This document shows positions 11,416 to 34,354 of a stretch of DNA of 35,995 bases, piece after piece (within the stretch, counting starts at the first letter, position 1; every line of letters begins with the position of its first letter). This DNA is from a virus: positions 1-35,995 of the IMG/VR virus record IMGVR_UViG_3300022413_000024, one strand, 5' to 3'. A program made the position numbers and the translations under genes. A model generated the notes under the pieces. The model did not search any database. It saw nothing but the letters and a program-made list of their open reading frames with translations, and was not told where the DNA came from.

Positions 11416-11921
11416 TAGTGTACCGTTATATTCATATTGTCAGTATCCATCATCAGGGCCATCAGGATAGCTTCTTCATCTTGTCGCCTGCGCTTGATAA
11501 GCCTGAGAATCTCGGCTTGCTCCTGTAAATCGAGTATGAATTCACGTGCTGCCAGTAAATCTCGAATGAGTATCTCACGTCTTATTAATAATTCAAGTGC
11601 CGCTGAAGCGGAGAGGAGGTCGATTTCGGCCTCGACTTGAGCTTCTTGCGCCTGCAAGATATCAATCGCCTGCTCGAATCGCTGAACCTCTTGACCAATG
11701 CCTTGAGCGCTTTCCTCGACCGGAATGGGCGGTATTTCAACATCGAAGACCTCCGTATCGCCCTTGAAGTTTAGTAATTCGTGGAAGCTCGTTGGCTTCT
11801 TGAGTCTTCTTCGTATGAAGGGACCGCCACCAATTCCCGGCCTGTAACCGGTTACTGCCACCTCGCCAATTAACAGCCCTAATGTATTGATGCCCCTCGA
11901 ATTGAGGCCAAACGTATTCAT
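11415..11921 (-). CDS. Coiled-coil structural protein in the fibre cluster
   Basis: Protein of 168 residues. The N-terminus is glycine- and arginine-rich (YRPGIGGGPFIRRRLKKP). From about residue 75 to 160 it is one long charged helix of E, Q, L, I and R (VQRFEQAIDILQAQEAQVEA, LIRREILIRDLLAAREFIL), which should form a coiled coil or helical bundle. It overlaps the upstream gene by 4 bp and the spike gene by TAATG. This is probably a linker or trimerising component of the tail appendage; not assignable to a named family. Confidence 0.55.
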   Translation of the reverse strand: MNTFGLNSRGINTLGLLIGEVAVTGYRPGIGGGPFIRRRLKKPTSFHELLNFKGDTEVFDVEIPPIPVEESAQGIGQEVQRFEQAIDILQAQEAQVEAEIDLLSASAALELLIRREILIRDLLAAREFILDLQEQAEILRLIKRRRQDEEAILMALMMDTDNMNITVH

Positions 11922-12484
11922 TGTGGCGTAATTTCACTGAGGTCTTCATTGGTGTCGAATACATGCAATGGCGTGACATCATCAGTATCATAAATAATCA
12001 GTGTGTTGCCAATCTTATCCCATTTTCGCTTACGAAATGCAGATTGGTGGAGTTCCTCTAGCTGCGTTTCCTGCAAGGCTGACAGACCAGAACCTGCGGC
12101 GACAAATGTACCATCCACCTGTGTTTCCAGCACCGTTACATCGCCCGCCGTTCCAGTAGCCTTGATAACCTCACCACCCAGCCCGCCGATTAACTTACCG
12201 CCCCGGATAGAGGTATATCCCGAACCGCCCCAGAATTGAACCTGCCAATCTGGGTTGAACTGAAGAATAATCTGCGTAAATACACCGGGGTTGTTGGCAT
12301 CTTCCAGTTTGCCCTCTGGCCTGGCGACATCACCCCGGAAATCCCAGTTAACGCCGTCACTCAACATACCAACAGGGCTTGCCATCTGGTCTTCAATATA
12401 ATCCGCTATCGCTTGCACCGTTGCCGTGGTGTCCGGGTTGGTAATCAAGAATAGCTTATTGAAATAATCAAGTTGAAACGGCAT
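11918..12484 (-). CDS. Tail appendage protein, unknown
   Basis: Protein of 188 residues starting MPFQLDYFNKLFLITNPDTTATVQAIADYIEDQM. A beta-rich core (IILQFNPDWQVQFWGGSGYTSIRGGKLIGG, then GEVIKATGTAGDVTVLETQVDGTFVAAGSG) is followed by a short helix and a final strand pair (KIGNTLIIYDTDDVTPLHVFDT). The last part resembles the small closing domain seen at the end of many phage tail-fibre attachment proteins. It lies in a block of overlapping structural genes and overlaps the 117-residue gene by 17 bp. Virion role inferred from context. Confidence 0.55.
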   Translation of the reverse strand: MPFQLDYFNKLFLITNPDTTATVQAIADYIEDQMASPVGMLSDGVNWDFRGDVARPEGKLEDANNPGVFTQIILQFNPDWQVQFWGGSGYTSIRGGKLIGGLGGEVIKATGTAGDVTVLETQVDGTFVAAGSGLSALQETQLEELHQSAFRKRKWDKIGNTLIIYDTDDVTPLHVFDTNEDLSEITPQ

Positions 12485-27134: not shown

Positions 27135-27548
27135 CTATAAATCACCAATTCTGGCTATTTGTTCCTTTATTTGTAAGTTCCAGGCTTTAATTAGCTCAAG
27201 TAAGTCTTTTTTGTAATATTTAATCGGGTGACGTTTTGTTTCTAACATGTAAGTCACAAAATCCCTTCCATAAAAGTCTTCCATCCAACGAGTATATTCT
27301 ATTGCTGCTGTTCCATATCGCATGCCCCAACCATTGCAGGATTTACATTGGACGTGGATGTTTTCCTCTCGTAAAGCCCAGTAGCTAGAGTGACCTTTAG
27401 CAATAAAATGACCGGCATCGCATTCTTTCCAGTGTTTCCAGGTGCCACACGTCACGCATTGACAATAACCATTATCATTAGCGGCTTTTAATCGGACTAG
27501 CTTTTGTAAGGTTGTTATGGCTTTAGCTTTTGGGTTTTTGGCGGTCAT
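27135..27548 (-). CDS. ninG: NinG/Rap recombination protein
   Basis: Protein of 137 residues of the lambda NinG (Rap) type, an endonuclease-like helper that targets recombination intermediates. Visible: a zinc pair YCQCVTCGTWK, an HNH-like segment CDAGHFIAKGHSSYWALREENIHVQ, and a second zinc pair CKSCN, in the order typical of NinG. The C-terminal helices (LLELIKAWNLQIKEQIARI) are as in the family. Last gene of the minus-strand accessory operon, overlapping the gene before it. Confidence 0.85.
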   Translation of the reverse strand: MTAKNPKAKAITTLQKLVRLKAANDNGYCQCVTCGTWKHWKECDAGHFIAKGHSSYWALREENIHVQCKSCNGWGMRYGTAAIEYTRWMEDFYGRDFVTYMLETKRHPIKYYKKDLLELIKAWNLQIKEQIARIGDL

Positions 27549-28650: not shown

Positions 28651-28971
28651 TTAATCCGGTTCATTGTTCTGGTTTAGTTTTTTTGATTCAATCCCGCTTT
28701 TTATCAGCGCCCATAAACCTGCTGCACATTCACATTCGCTATTGGGCGGGATTAAATCTAATCCATGCTCTCGCTGCATGTCCTTGCCAAGCTCCCATGT
28801 TTTTCGAACATTCATCGCTGCATGGCGCAATGCCATCATGGTGTCGATACTCGGGACATCTGGCAGGTCAATCAAATCATTATTAAGTGCATGATTTTGA
28901 TTCCACATCCTGCGAAGTTCTCGCCTTAACTCTGCTTTAGTAAAACTGTTTTCGTATGGTTCAGTATCCAT
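28651..28971 (-). CDS. Hypothetical 106-residue protein, last gene of the junction array
   Basis: Protein of 106 residues: MDTEPYENSFTKAELRRELR, a helix RRMWNQNHALNNDLIDLPDV, DTMMALRHAAMNVRKTWELGKD and a C-terminal part with CECAAGLWALIKSGIESKK. Mostly helical and charged. It begins at a GAGGATAGATAGATGG unit, so start and ribosome-binding site are clear. No known family. Confidence 0.65.
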   Translation of the reverse strand: MDTEPYENSFTKAELRRELRRMWNQNHALNNDLIDLPDVPSIDTMMALRHAAMNVRKTWELGKDMQREHGLDLIPPNSECECAAGLWALIKSGIESKKLNQNNEPD

Positions 28972-28975
28972 CTAT

Positions 28976-29086
28976 CTATCCTCCGATTAAATACCCGATT
29001 AAGACGCCGGCAGCAAACCAGCACCAGCGAATAATTGTTTCTCTGCTAGGGTCGAACCATTCCTGAAAGAATTTATCAATATCCAT
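28976..29086 (-). CDS. 36-residue single-pass membrane protein in junction array
   Basis: Short gene bounded by two junction units. Encodes MDIDKFFQEWFDPSRETIIR then a membrane helix (WCWFAAGVLIGYLIGG) at the very C-terminus. It ends at the first TAG of the next junction. Perfect ribosome-binding spacing from the upstream unit. Role unknown; a membrane-directed early protein is plausible. Confidence 0.6.
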   Translation of the reverse strand: MDIDKFFQEWFDPSRETIIRWCWFAAGVLIGYLIGG

Positions 29087-29290
29087 CTATCTATCCTCCC
29101 CGATTAGGGTAAGCGACCGAATCGTTAAGCCGAGGCGACTTTCACCGTTTATTTCTTCTTTTAATTTTTGATATTCTTCCCAATCACCTGAAAACATTTT
29201 TTCACGCACTATAATGCCATCAAGGTGCGCTGTTTTAACTGCGCTCTCCTGCCGGGTTGCGTGGTAGTGATAAACGTATTTCTTAGCCAT
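29087..29290 (-). CDS. 67-residue hypothetical protein in junction array
   Basis: MAKKYVYHYHATRQESAVKT, then AHLDGIIVREKMFSGDWEEYQKLKEEINGESR and a final strand ending in EDR. Strand-helix-strand outline; the opening K-Y-V-Y-H-Y-H-A and the phrase LDGII resemble small phage proteins with a W-x-x-Y-x-x-L-K-x-x-I helix. It is bounded by two exact junction units, and its TAG is immediately followed by the ATG of the next gene. Function unknown. Confidence 0.6.
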   Translation of the reverse strand: MAKKYVYHYHATRQESAVKTAHLDGIIVREKMFSGDWEEYQKLKEEINGESRLGLTIRSLTLIGEDR

Positions 29291-29407
29291 CTATCTATCC
29301 TCTCGTCTGGGCCATTCAATAGACCCTTTCGCCCTGAACAGGAATTTAAGCCGCCACCAGAAGCTACTAAATACCAGCCTGCGAATACAGTCTTCGTTAG
29401 TATCCAT
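29291..29407 (-). CDS. 38-residue basic protein in junction array
   Basis: Short gene between two exact junction units. Encodes MDTNEDCIRRLVFSSFWWRL then a basic stretch (KFLFRAKGSIEWPRRE) and ends EDR. Amphipathic and tryptophan-rich, so it might touch membranes. Too short for family assignment; translation is supported by the two junctions. Confidence 0.55.
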   Translation of the reverse strand: MDTNEDCIRRLVFSSFWWRLKFLFRAKGSIEWPRREDR

Positions 29408-29411
29408 CTAT

Positions 29412-29537
29412 CTATCCTCCCATCGTACTAATTATTGTCTGGCATCCGTGGATAATTATAGCCACTGCAACAAGCCACAAAGCATTGCCGATTTGAGTTA
29501 GCGAATTAATCAATCGCGTTATCTGGTTGTCATCCAT
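29412..29537 (-). CDS. 41-residue membrane protein in junction array
   Basis: Encodes MDDNQITRLINSLTQIGNAL then a hydrophobic stretch (WLVAVAIIIHGCQTIISTM) and ends GG at the first TAG of the next junction. Single membrane helix. A second in-frame-shifted ATG at 29533 belongs to a different frame and is not used. Role unknown. Confidence 0.55.
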   Translation of the reverse strand: MDDNQITRLINSLTQIGNALWLVAVAIIIHGCQTIISTMGG

Positions 29538-29768
29538 CTATCTATCCTCTGTTTTATTATGCCTGTCCAGGTAAAGACTGAGGACGTTATAGTGCCGGTA
29601 ATGCTCAGGGCCGAAAGCCTCGCTACAATCTTTCATTTTGTCCATGTACCGGCTATAGAAATAACGCGCCGCCCAGAACAAAGCTAATTCGCCAACAGTT
29701 AGGGCCGCCATATCTGGCTTGATTTCAAATGGTTCGGCATTGTTATCGTCAATGTCTATTGTTTCCAT
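29538..29768 (-). CDS. 76-residue hypothetical protein in junction array
   Basis: METIDIDDNNAEPFEIKPDM, an acidic start, then ALTVGELALFWAARYFYSRYMDKMKDCSEAFG and HYRHYNVLSLYLDRHNKTEDR. Helical, aromatic-rich. Starts at an exact junction unit and ends EDR at the next one. No family recognised. Confidence 0.6.
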   Translation of the reverse strand: METIDIDDNNAEPFEIKPDMAALTVGELALFWAARYFYSRYMDKMKDCSEAFGPEHYRHYNVLSLYLDRHNKTEDR

Positions 29769-30218
29769 CTATCTATCCTCCCAAAATCTCGGTAGCCGGT
29801 TCCATGCATCTACCGCATATTCCATGCACTCATCGGAATCTAGCGCGGCATAGGAAGTTCTAAACTCCGTTTCCCATTCACCGCAAGCGGTACATGATGC
29901 CATCGCGCATTTCCCGCCTTGCCCTGCATCGCTAATGCATAAAGTTTCTGGGGTCTCGCCGCATGGGCATTGTTTAATATCCATCCATCTATCCTCTGGG
30001 GGTTCGGGGAGGGGCATCCAGTGGGTGATTCTATAATCATCGAGGCAGTGGGTAACGCGGGCATCGCCCGTTATTTCCTCATATTCCGATTGCTCAAACC
30101 ATGACCCCGCATCCGCTTCATACCGCGCAGCGATAATAGTCTCTGTCTGGAATGCCACCCTTGCTAAAACTGGTGCGTAATAGGGCGGCAATCTATCTTC
30201 TACCTTTATCCATTCCAT
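29769..30218 (-). CDS. Fused DUF551 + Lar-like zinc protein (stop-codon loss at the junction)
   Basis: Protein of 149 residues. Residues 1-77 are a DUF551 protein: MEWIKVEDRLPPYYAPVLA at the start and THWMPLPEPP at the end are the family hallmarks. Residues 79-149 are a Lar-like restriction-alleviation protein: IKQCPCGETPE, then SCTACGEWETEF and AVDAWNRL, with two Cys pairs for zinc. Between them is EDR-W-MD. At the other junctions this codon is TAG; here it is TGG (29985-29987), so the stop is gone and the genes read as one. The GAGGA and ATG of the second gene (29984) remain, so separate translation of the Lar part is still possible. Confidence 0.75.
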   Translation of the reverse strand: MEWIKVEDRLPPYYAPVLARVAFQTETIIAARYEADAGSWFEQSEYEEITGDARVTHCLDDYRITHWMPLPEPPEDRWMDIKQCPCGETPETLCISDAGQGGKCAMASCTACGEWETEFRTSYAALDSDECMEYAVDAWNRLPRFWEDR

Positions 30219-30500
30219 CTATCTATCCTCTATTAAAGGAACCGGATAGTAGTAATACCGAGTTCCTGTGTAATCAATCTCAAAATCAGGGTCTATTGAT
30301 TCAAATATTTTTTTTAGCTGGTCTCTGCGCTCATAAATTAAACCAGGCGCGTCAGAATTTGCGCCATGCAGTCTAAGCAGGTTTTCAAGCTCACCTACCC
30401 TTGCTTGAGCATCTTTTTCACTAAGATAGGCACAAACCGGCCATTCGTTACGGTCTGAATATTCCCCTGTTGTTCCAATAACAACATACACCTTATCCAT
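30219..30500 (-). CDS. 93-residue hypothetical protein in junction array
   Basis: MDKVYVVIGTTGEYSDRNEW then PVCAYLSEKDAQARVGELENLLRLHGANS and RYYYYPVPLIEDR. The opening V-Y-V-V-x-G-x-x-G-E-Y-S-D followed by A-Y-L-S-E-x-D-A-x-x-x-V is a familiar layout of small phage proteins with a strand, a turn and a helix that follows a beta hairpin. It begins the array (junction 30497) and ends EDR at junction 30215. Biochemical role unknown. Confidence 0.65.
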   Translation of the reverse strand: MDKVYVVIGTTGEYSDRNEWPVCAYLSEKDAQARVGELENLLRLHGANSDAPGLIYERRDQLKKIFESIDPDFEIDYTGTRYYYYPVPLIEDR

Positions 30501-30510
30501 CTATCTATCC

Positions 30511-30765
30511 TCACTCTACCTTGTCTGAAATATCATTCCACTTCGCCTGGAAGTCGGCATATGCCTGAACATATCGATATATCAATCGCATTCTTTCCGG
30601 GTTTGCGGTAATGAATCGGTATTTGGGGTTGGGCATAAACGCCCTATTCACCCAGGCCGGGCTTAAATCCAGTGTTTTTGTGATTTGTGCCAGTGTTAAA
30701 TCACATTCCCGGCACATCTCACGAATAACATCAGGGTCTGGGTTTACTGGGATGTATTGTCTCAT
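30511..30765 (-). CDS. 84-residue HTH-like protein
   Basis: Protein of 84 residues: CDLTLAQITKTLDLSPAWVNRAF (residues about 20-42) reads as a helix-turn-helix (L-x-x-I-x-x-x-L-x-L-S-x-x-x-V). A second helical part follows (NPERMRLIYRYVQAYADFQAKW). This suggests a small DNA-binding regulator. The start overlaps the preceding stop (ATGA), and the stop TGA comes before the first junction unit of the array, so this is not a junction-ended gene. Confidence 0.6.
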   Translation of the reverse strand: MRQYIPVNPDPDVIREMCRECDLTLAQITKTLDLSPAWVNRAFMPNPKYRFITANPERMRLIYRYVQAYADFQAKWNDISDKVE

Positions 30766-31100
30766 TGGTGACTCCGGTCAGTTAATCTCTCATTGGCGCA
30801 TTGGGTCTGCCATACGCGAGTCAAACCTTCAGCCGCTTCCATCTTCCAGCGATGGGTTTCTTCTTCCTGTACCGCTATCTGAAGGGCTACCAGTTGCTTT
30901 TCATACTCAGGATGGGCATAACACCAGTTCTTTTTGTCTTCGACTGTCTTGCAGTCTTCAGGTGCATGTTGGTAGAGATTGGCGAAACAGGTCTTTAGAT
31001 AATGCGTGATGTAAATACGATTCGCCTTGGCACTCGCCAGGTTTTTCGCATTATTCCGCATATACTCCAGTGCCGCTTCTACCTTGTTTTGATTAATCAT
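30762..31100 (-). CDS. 112-residue helical protein, first gene of the minus accessory operon
   Basis: MINQNKVEAALEYMRNNAKN, then LASAKANRIYITHYLKTCFANLYQHAPEDC and EYEKQLVALQIAVQEEETHRWKMEAAEGLTRVWQ. An all-helical layout (A-x-x-Y-x-R-x-N-A-x-x-x-A-x-A-x-A-x-R-x-Y at the start) that I associate with small proteins seen in several lambdoid and Burkholderia phages near recombination genes; role not known. The AGGGG ribosome-binding site sits inside a terminator-like hairpin that ends at the ATG, so expression is probably controlled. Confidence 0.6.
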   Translation of the reverse strand: MINQNKVEAALEYMRNNAKNLASAKANRIYITHYLKTCFANLYQHAPEDCKTVEDKKNWCYAHPEYEKQLVALQIAVQEEETHRWKMEAAEGLTRVWQTQCANERLTDRSHQ

Positions 31101-31131
31101 AAAAAAACCCCTGCTCAGTTAAGGACAGGGG
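31101..31131 (-). promoter_or_regulatory. Attenuator-like hairpin holding the ribosome-binding site
   Basis: Minus-strand stem CCCCTG / CAGGGG with a 12-base loop, then seven T, then the ATG of the 112-residue gene. It has terminator geometry, but its 3-prime arm is the ribosome-binding site. Two further hairpins stand upstream on the same leader: GCGAC / GTCGC (31141-31154) and ATGCAGG / CCTGCAT (31158-31185). Confidence 0.7.
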
Positions 31132-31200
31132 CTAAGGGTTGCGACCTGAGTCGCAGAATGCAGGAAGGTGAAGGGAAACCTGCATCCGGAGGAGAGTTGA

Positions 31201-31228
31201 ATAGTATCACCTTTTTAACCCCTGTAAA
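31201..31228 (-). promoter_or_regulatory. Promoter of the minus accessory operon
   Basis: On the minus strand TTTACA (31228-31223), 16 bp, TGA then TACTAT (31206-31201), an extended -10 type sigma-70 promoter. It is back-to-back with the plus promoter at 31234. Confidence 0.6.
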
Positions 31229-31233
31229 TATAT

Positions 31234-31263
31234 TTGACACTGTAACACATCCCATGTTATAAT
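31234..31263 (+). promoter_or_regulatory. Strong sigma-70 promoter of the right-hand plus operon
   Basis: TTGACA (31234-31239), 18 bp spacer, TATAAT (31258-31263), with TGT before the -10 box. Both boxes are consensus. A small dyad ACAT-CCC-ATGT sits in the spacer and could be an operator. The first gene starts 33 bp downstream with AGGTGAAG. Confidence 0.9.
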
Positions 31264-32520: not shown

Positions 32521-32739
32521 ATGAAAAACTCACAGAACAAAAGACTGTTAGCCCATTTACAGGCTGGCAATGTGGTTGACCCACTCAAATCCTGGCAGAC
32601 ACTCGGTATCTATCGTCTGGCTGCAAGGATTCACGACCTGATTAATCAAGGTCACAACATTAACAAGTCATGGATTACGGCCTATAACCGTTACGGTGAA
32701 AAGGTACGGGTCCGGGCTTATTGGCTACCGAAACTCTAA
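32521..32739 (+). CDS. HTH_39-type small DNA-binding protein
   Basis: Protein of 72 residues. LLAHLQAGNVVDPLKSWQTLGIYRLAARIHDLINQGHNI (about residues 9-47) is the helix-turn-helix pattern of short phage proteins of the HTH_39 kind, with L-x-A-G-x-x-x-x-P-L, then G-x-x-R-L-A-A-R-I-x-D-L. The end is basic (YGEKVRVRAYWLPKL). A likely DNA-binding accessory of the replication/recombination module. AAGGTGAAAGGTT precedes the ATG. Confidence 0.7.
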   Translation: MKNSQNKRLLAHLQAGNVVDPLKSWQTLGIYRLAARIHDLINQGHNINKSWITAYNRYGEKVRVRAYWLPKL

Positions 32740-32753
32740 AAGAGGTGAACACC

Positions 32754-33527
32754 ATGATAAATTATGAAATAGAAACAATTACTCCCGAAATGGCCGCGCA
32801 AATGCTGGAATATAACCCCCGCAATCGCCGCCTCAAAGACAGGCATGTTGCTGAACTCGCTGGCGCAATGGAGCGCGGCGAATGGCAGCTTAATGGCGAA
32901 TCCATCAAGTTAAGCGGTAAAAATGTGATAGATGGGCAGCATCGCCTCTGGGCGTGCTTGCGGGCAAACAAGCCTTTTAAGACGCTACTTGTTCGCGGAC
33001 TACCAATGAATGCCCAGAAAACAGTTGATACTGGCAAGATACGAACAAACCCCGACCACCTACAAATGCTGGGCGAATCTTACGCGGGGCTTTTAGCCAA
33101 TGTTATTTACCGCGTATATCACTACCAGAAAGGCTCTTTGCTGGAACGCAGAAGCATGACGCACAAACAGACTGAAAAGTTCTTGATGGAAAACCCAACT
33201 CTACGGGATTACGTCGCAATATATGGCTCACTTCGCCCGGTTGGCCCCAAAGCATTGTTGGCCTCGGCCCATTTCATCTTTGCTGAAATCGACCAGGCGC
33301 AAGCGGATGATTTCATGGAAAGGTATACCAAGGGAACCGGACTAGAGGAAGGCAGCCCGATTTTAACCCTTAGAAATCGCCTGATTAAAGACTTATCTTC
33401 AGAGACCAAGCTGAACCAGTTCCAGAAGTTTGCCATGTTTATCAAGGCATGGAATACATGGCGCGACGGTGAGCAAATGCACCGTATTGGCTACCGCCCA
33501 ACTGAAGACTTCCCGGTGGCACGGTAA
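32754..33527 (+). CDS. ParB/Srx-like protein
   Basis: Protein of 257 residues starting MINYEIETITPEMAAQMLEY; ATG 32754 has GAGGTG at the right distance, and the frame open from 32721 lacks one. LSGKNVIDGQHRLWACLRANKP (about residues 53-74) carries the D-G-x-H-R motif of the ParB/sulfiredoxin fold, with N-P-R-N-R-R before it. The C-terminal two thirds are helical (RSMTHKQTEKFLMEN and LRNRLIKDLSSETKLNQFQKF). Members act as nucleases, regulators or nucleotide-dependent clamps. The gene is coupled by TAATG to the PD-(D/E)XK nuclease, implying a joint role in DNA processing. Confidence 0.7.
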   Translation: MINYEIETITPEMAAQMLEYNPRNRRLKDRHVAELAGAMERGEWQLNGESIKLSGKNVIDGQHRLWACLRANKPFKTLLVRGLPMNAQKTVDTGKIRTNPDHLQMLGESYAGLLANVIYRVYHYQKGSLLERRSMTHKQTEKFLMENPTLRDYVAIYGSLRPVGPKALLASAHFIFAEIDQAQADDFMERYTKGTGLEEGSPILTLRNRLIKDLSSETKLNQFQKFAMFIKAWNTWRDGEQMHRIGYRPTEDFPVAR

Positions 33528-34354
33528 TGGGACACTGGTACACAAAAGATGGCGAACCGATGCACTACATCGTAGGCGCGAACGGTAAAGAACGCGATAC
33601 GAACTTGCGTGATGCAAGAAAACTCAACCTGTTTCCGAGCTATACGGGAATCGCCGACCAATTGGCAAAACCTGGGCTGGAAGCATGGAAACAGAACAAC
33701 CTCCTGTATGCCGCTCTAACGACTCCGAGACCCGAAGGCATATCCGACGATGAATTTCTTAAAATCGTCCGTCTGAGCGCTGCTGAGGAGGCTGAGAAGG
33801 CTAAATTGAGGGGTAATGAGATACACGATTGCATAGAAGCGCTTTGGAAGGACAATACAGGCGAAGCAATGGACTATCCGCCGGACGTGATGGCGATATC
33901 CAGTGCAGCGATTCCGGTCATTACAGATTATTGCCTAAGCGATAATTTCACCCCCGAAAAAACTTTCGCCTCACCGTTAGGTTATGGCGGGATGATAGAT
34001 TTGGTTAGCAATGAATATGACAATCGGAATGAATCAGATCCCAGCTACAATCGTCTCAGATGGTTGGTGGATTATAAGACCAAAGACATCAGTGATGAGC
34101 AGTGGCAGTTGTATGAGGATAAGAAGAACCCCCGCATTGCTTATCCGAATAACTTACAGCAGCTAGTCGTCTATGACCGGGGGTTAGGCCAGTCAGGACG
34201 TCGATTGTTGAATGTTTATATCGATAGAACCATTCCAGGCAGGGTTATTTTGCACGAGTGGACGGATATGGAAGCGGCCGACCGGGAATTTACCAAGTTC
34301 ATGGACTTGTTGCATCATTGGCAGACTGACAAACAGTACGCGCCAGAGTCATGA
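33527..34354 (+). CDS. PD-(D/E)XK family nuclease
   Basis: Protein of 275 residues of the RecB/Cas4-like PD-(D/E)XK superfamily. Visible catalytic elements: KLRGNEIHDCIE (residues about 92-103, helix with the conserved H), YGGMIDLV with the motif D (about 151-158), and RWLVDYKTK with the D-x-K motif (about 178-186), followed by LQQLVVYD as the Q-x-x-x-Y helix. The order matches phage exonucleases that process DNA ends during recombination. It is coupled to the ParB-like gene. Confidence 0.8.
   Translation: MGHWYTKDGEPMHYIVGANGKERDTNLRDARKLNLFPSYTGIADQLAKPGLEAWKQNNLLYAALTTPRPEGISDDEFLKIVRLSAAEEAEKAKLRGNEIHDCIEALWKDNTGEAMDYPPDVMAISSAAIPVITDYCLSDNFTPEKTFASPLGYGGMIDLVSNEYDNRNESDPSYNRLRWLVDYKTKDISDEQWQLYEDKKNPRIAYPNNLQQLVVYDRGLGQSGRRLLNVYIDRTIPGRVILHEWTDMEAADREFTKFMDLLHHWQTDKQYAPES

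Follow-up and report, generated by a model that had tools for sequence, protein, structure and literature searches.

A 16-base stop/start unit repeated at the junctions of nine consecutive small genes in a phage early operon

The DNA analysed here, called the window, is the whole of IMG/VR virus record IMGVR_UViG_3300022413_000024, 35,995 bases long. On its minus strand, between 28968 and 30512, the sequence GAGGATAGATAGATGG is present nine times, in eight cases exactly and once with a single base changed, and the positions reported in the initial annotation proved correct (Table 1). A small open reading frame (ORF) begins at every copy (9/9), the ATG being supplied by the repeat itself, and all eight segments lying between successive units are open from the ATG of one unit to the next unit. 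When estimated with dinucleotide shuffles, the product of the open-frame probabilities over these eight segments is about 5e-13. Likewise, the chance expectation for GAGGATAGATAGATGG with at most three mismatches is 0.23 matches, and no shuffle reached nine. The copies are all found at gene starts and nowhere else (9/9 and 0, respectively), all on the minus strand, in the leftward early region, and all with ATG as the initiation codon. No other predicted gene of this 36-kb contig is preceded by the unit, and the start regions of these other genes are varied.

Table 1. Positions of the repeated units, of the genes that they join and of the neighbouring features in the window.
Feature	Coordinates	Strand	Remarks
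Promoter-like site TTTACA-16-TACTAT	31228-31201	-	start of operon
112-aa gene	30762..31100	-	first of operon; ATGA overlap with following gene
84-aa gene	30511..30765	-	upstream of array; ordinary, different start region
Unit 1, exact	30497..30512	-	starts 93-aa gene; TGA of 84-aa gene overlaps its first two bases
93-aa gene	30219..30500	-	47% identical homolog in viral contig locus L233
Unit 2, exact	30215..30230	-	end of 93-aa gene (EDR), start of DUF551 gene
149-aa ORF	29769..30218	-	DUF551 (PF04448, E 2.6e-13) and Cys-rich 71-aa gene in frame
Unit 3, variant GAGGATAGATGGATGG	29981..29996	-	TAG to TGG; DUF551 gene fused to Cys-rich gene
Unit 4, exact	29765..29780	-	start of 76-aa gene
76-aa gene	29538..29768	-	no family match
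Unit 5, exact	29534..29549	-	start of 41-aa gene
41-aa gene	29412..29537	-	hydrophobic stretch; ends Gly-Gly
Unit 6, exact	29404..29419	-	start of 38-aa gene
38-aa gene	29291..29407	-	ends EDR
Unit 7, exact	29287..29302	-	start of 67-aa gene
67-aa gene	29087..29290	-	weak match to phrog_29890, E 0.003; ends EDR
Unit 8, exact	29083..29098	-	start of 36-aa gene
36-aa gene	28976..29086	-	hydrophobic stretch; ends Gly-Gly
Unit 9, exact	28968..28983	-	start of 106-aa gene
106-aa gene	28651..28971	-	last in array; no significant family match
NinG/Rap-like gene	27135..27548	-	downstream; PF05766, E 1.8e-11; lambdoid nin-region marker
Predicted exonuclease	33527-34354

The unit is laid out as a GAGG Shine-Dalgarno core, two overlapping TAG codons and an ATG-G start, and it combines, as had been proposed, a ribosome-binding site with stop codons for two reading frames and the ATG of the gene that follows. 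One TAG stands directly before the ATG and the other one four bases earlier, in the second frame; the junctions of the array take either the form TAG-ATG or the form TAG-ATAG-ATG. The third frame is open and is used by none of the upstream genes, apart from the route through the mutated copy. Fifteen of the 16 columns are identical in all nine units. To the left, conservation stops sharply at the Shine-Dalgarno G, at the same place in all copies; to the right, the second codon is mostly GAT and the likeness fades across the following codons. The upstream flanks are unrelated, no inverted repeat is tied to the units, and a minus-strand promoter-like or terminator-like site was found at none of the nine junctions. 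Predicted pairing with the 16S anti-Shine-Dalgarno sequence averages -8.8 kcal/mol in the array against -5.8 for the other genes of the contig, and it is chiefly the copies with a G in front that account for the stronger value.

Five ORFs (93, 149, 76, 38 and 67 aa) terminate in Glu-Asp-Arg and two (41 and 36 aa) in Gly-Gly; the initial annotation had the Gly-Gly count right and gave four Glu-Asp-Arg ends, which we correct to five. Its description of the genes as otherwise unrelated holds, for comparison of the array proteins with one another detected no similarity, and descent of the genes from a common ancestor by tandem duplication was rejected on this ground. Apart from DUF551 and the weak PHROG match of the 67-aa protein, no array protein has a significant family match. 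A Lar-like label for the Cys-rich gene was rejected as not significant (E 0.11), and nothing significant links the array genes to a defence system.

Short repeats at gene starts have been described in other phages under the name of start-associated sequences (SAS). In cluster K mycobacteriophages, these are sequences of 13 bp, present in 11-19 copies at the position of the ribosome site, in one orientation, before non-structural genes (PMC3203893). Their conservation exceeds what ribosome binding explains, and the authors left their role open (PMC3203893). A second, unrelated SAS set exists in cluster EF Microbacterium phages (PMC7302621). In our comparison, the cluster K SAS come closest to the array unit in function: both are near-identical short repeats that occupy the place of the ribosome site in front of numerous small non-structural genes unrelated to one another, in one orientation and mainly with ATG starts, and in both the preceding gene may have its stop inside the repeat (PMC3203893, PMC7302621). 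On the other hand, the array unit is not a member of the SAS by sequence, the SAS consensus being GGGATAGGAGCCC / GGGAAAGGACCCC. The SAS are scattered over the right arm, whereas the unit joins nine consecutive genes; the start codon lies outside the SAS at a variable distance, whereas the unit includes both stop and start; and the extended inverted repeat termed ESAS, which lies upstream of roughly half the SAS in cluster K, is absent at the array units. Altogether, the array is a case of start-associated repeats, which certain other phages are known to have, and its density and exactness are unusual. The initial annotation knew of no named system of this kind; the SAS are one, and the PeSLs, as cited in PMC4503421 and discussed below, are another.

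We propose that the unit is probably a SAS-like translational junction that has been copied along an early operon. GAGG would act as the Shine-Dalgarno sequence, the TAG codons would terminate a preceding gene read in one or the other of two frames, and ATG-G would start the next one. Ribosomes finishing one small gene would in this way be placed for re-initiation on the following gene, so that the nine genes would be translated at similar, coupled levels. According to PMC10666635, a stop-to-start distance of about 20 nt nearly abolishes re-initiation, and the distances of 0 and 4 nt in the array fit re-initiation as treated there. Translation alone does not explain the exactness of the unit, since ribosome binding needs no identical spacer ATAGATAG and since the starts of the other genes are varied. 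Because bases beyond the needs of ribosome binding are also identical, the copies would descend from one sequence copied to each junction, and we infer that they are kept identical by selection or by recent spread and not by recombination between phages. The array would tolerate gene loss or reordering as a by-product.

Recent spread could also have been neutral, the junction being copied by replication slippage or gene conversion too recently to have diverged and serving as a plain ribosome site. Units 3, 6 and 8 align with unit 9 over 28 nt (82-86%), and this residual similarity reaches into the first codons, as expected if a longer stretch had been copied; the GATA-like internal repetition of the unit could favour slippage. 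However, the absence of similarity among the array proteins implies that the junction was copied repeatedly without the genes, and its left edge is identical in all copies instead of ragged, so that we hold this explanation to be highly improbable. When the flanks were permuted, similarity past codon 2 came out at p 0.002, a value on which we do not rely because genes usually begin A-rich and the shuffles take no account of this.

The array belongs to an operon in which an ATGA overlap occurs only at the junction of the 112-aa and 84-aa genes, upstream of the first unit. Within 31101..31228 (minus), the promoter-like site is followed by a leader that folds into three hairpins (-37.5 kcal/mol, z -4.9), of which the last is terminator-like with its U-run abutting the first ATG of the operon. 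This arrangement suggests that attenuation or antitermination may operate there. A perfect sigma-70 consensus promoter (TTGACA-18-TATAAT) lies on the plus strand at 31234-31263 and diverges from the neighbouring promoter-like site, which points leftward. At its predicted 5' end, the leftward transcript reads CUCUCCUCC (31187-31196, minus); this sequence is complementary to Shine-Dalgarno sequences such as GGAGG and could possibly base pair with ribosome sites in the operon. Among the neighbours on the opposite strand are a predicted replication initiation protein (NGO0469 family) and the exonuclease. The phage genome shows some lambdoid features, and the array lies in its early, accessory part.

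Alternatively, the unit could be a regulatory site, at which a phage or host RNA-binding protein or a small RNA would switch the translation of the nine genes together. The structured leader suggests regulated expression, and the conservation is exact beyond what a Shine-Dalgarno sequence needs, the same argument having been made for the SAS. Against this, the contig holds no antisense copy of the unit with up to three mismatches, neither the unit nor the leader matches an Rfam family, no candidate RNA-binding protein was identified and no ESAS-like inverted repeat lies beside the unit. We consider such a switch very unlikely.

The third copy deserves separate consideration. Its TAG to TGG change removes the in-frame stop and, therefore, the second and third genes read as a single ORF, inside which the Cys-rich gene retains its own unit start at 29984. 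Several DUF551 homologs from other viral contigs (two copies in L227, one each in L231 and L172) end two residues past a PEPP/PQPP motif, which is the position at which an unmutated unit would place its stop; those of L228-L230 and L232 differ from this pattern. Given the ends of these several homologs, the fusion is probably derived. The simplest reading would be that unit 3 lost its stop recently, and a sequencing or assembly error at the variant base is possible.

We then come to the distribution of the unit. In viral contigs, GAGGATAGATAGATGG is found in 35 stretches, one copy in each and never twice, and in species genomes in 96 stretches among 257 billion bases, again never with two copies in one; about 120 occurrences of a 16-mer would be expected by chance in 257 billion bases, an estimate that assumes equal base frequencies. 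That many of these single copies precede genes simply reflects the make-up of the sequence, which consists of a ribosome site and an ATG. Freeing two spacer positions of the unit returned single-copy contigs alone among the matches listed. No near relative of this phage was found, in a collection that may omit records very near to it, so that an unseen sister phage is possible. Searches with the terminase, the exonuclease and NinG yielded distant kin only, the terminase relatives being at most 47-49% identical, and GAGGATAGATAGATGG with up to two mismatches is absent from the eight related records searched whole, which is how the proposed look at related phages turned out. At the DNA level, annotated phages gave no match in searches for either close or remote similarity, nor did the 93-aa, 67-aa and DUF551 proteins against phage proteins, and no relative of the neighbouring gene at 32721-33527 was found in viral contigs.

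Arrays of this kind also seem to be rare among the loci compared. Our detector, which picks out ORF starts preceded by 14-base sequences resembling one another, was applied to 337 mostly phage-derived loci or records (4.0 Mb); these are not a random sample of phages because they were collected by similarity to genes of this phage or to the unit. TM4, in which 10 SAS matches are present, served as positive control for the known SAS. The array described here is the only nine-copy case. The next real gene-start cases have three or four copies, with AGGAGAWAWAACT-ATG in L142, L219 and L222, which are distant podovirus-like relatives, and GGGAGGGGTGAGTG-ATG in L013. In L222, four exact AGGAGAWAWAACTATG starts precede small genes between 7946 and 11405, and the same sites are present in L142 and L219; this is a weaker iterated start unit of another sequence. 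L013 has, within 11652-12352, one exact GAGGATAGATAGATGG, after which come three small genes whose GGGAGGGGTGAGTG-ATG starts are nearly identical. The four- and five-copy matches of L217 and L260 were judged to be evenly spaced short tandem repeats and not gene starts.

The initial annotation had seen in the uniform junctions a means for genes to be lost, gained or duplicated by homologous recombination. Interchangeability stands as far as the sequence goes: genes with no detectable similarity lie between identical units, and when we simulated the loss of blocks between two units, both neighbours were left unchanged in 59 of 72 products, all 13 exceptions involving the mutated third copy. The units could then be recombination linkers, homology arms by which phages with the unit in common would gain, lose or exchange genes, and the array would be a cassette array assembled by homologous or slippage recombination. 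In T4, recombination proceeds via homologies of 6-10 bp (PMC9391042), and our phage has both a predicted exonuclease and a NinG-like endonuclease. Nevertheless, none of the scanned proteins was recognisable as a single-strand annealing protein, the junctions of the 93-aa homolog (L233) and of the DUF551 homologs in other contigs are unrelated to the unit, and, as no other record with at least two copies was found, a donor pool is not visible. Actual gain, loss or exchange at the units is accordingly not borne out by the records found, in which the unit never exceeds one copy.

The SAS offered a comparable case. We related gene presence or absence to SAS in three cluster K1 mycobacteriophages; four of the 20 gain/loss blocks begin at a SAS, against a background of 36 of 158 genes, the blocks being pairwise and not independent. 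There is no enrichment, and in our analysis recombination at such sites is neither excluded nor favoured by this result. One gene, annotated as a SprT-like protease in Adephagia, is flanked by two SAS there and in Anaya and is missing in CrimD, which would be in keeping with linkers. The segments concerned are L425 30344-30805 and L427 31403-31864, without counterpart in L426. On balance, we regard recombination linkers as an unlikely account of the array. A true modular gene-cassette system, in which relatives would share the 16-bp unit and their genes would have been gained, lost or reordered by recombination inside it, is quite unlikely; were it true, one sequence would serve as translation signal and recombination joint at once.

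Three known arrangements of small genes bear on this question. In T4-like phages, the PeSLs (promoter early stem-loops; Arbiol 2010, Comeau 2014) are, as cited in PMC4503421, repeated regulatory elements between small early genes that are reported to permit gene shuffling. A PeSL as described there consists of a promoter and a stem-loop, whereas the array unit is a translation junction devoid of promoter or terminator, and the shuffling reported for PeSLs between relatives was not seen at the array units. The lambda nin region, according to Kroger and Hobom 1982 as cited in PMC8022706, resembles the array in that its small early genes, which are nonessential, are closely packed and meet at stop/start junctions, and a NinG/Rap-like gene lies downstream of our small early genes on the same strand; the lambdoid junctions are ATGA overlaps, whereas the array has an identical 16-bp unit in which TAG precedes ATG. 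Integron gene cassette arrays, the analogy drawn in the initial annotation, also hold interchangeable small genes between repeated elements. In the array, the junctions are just 16 bp and the genes abut or nearly abut; a structured attC-like site was not seen, and no integrase was recognised among the proteins scanned, which cover part of the ORFs.

A SAS-like translational junction thus remains our preferred reading of the unit. In the literature that we found, start-associated repeats have so far been described in phages of Actinobacteria. The present case is denser and cleaner, with nine consecutive genes and a 16-base unit carrying both the stop and the start. With one short construct, it would be possible to ask if exact start repeats have a role beyond ribosome binding and, with the same construct, if they double as recombination joints for small phage genes.
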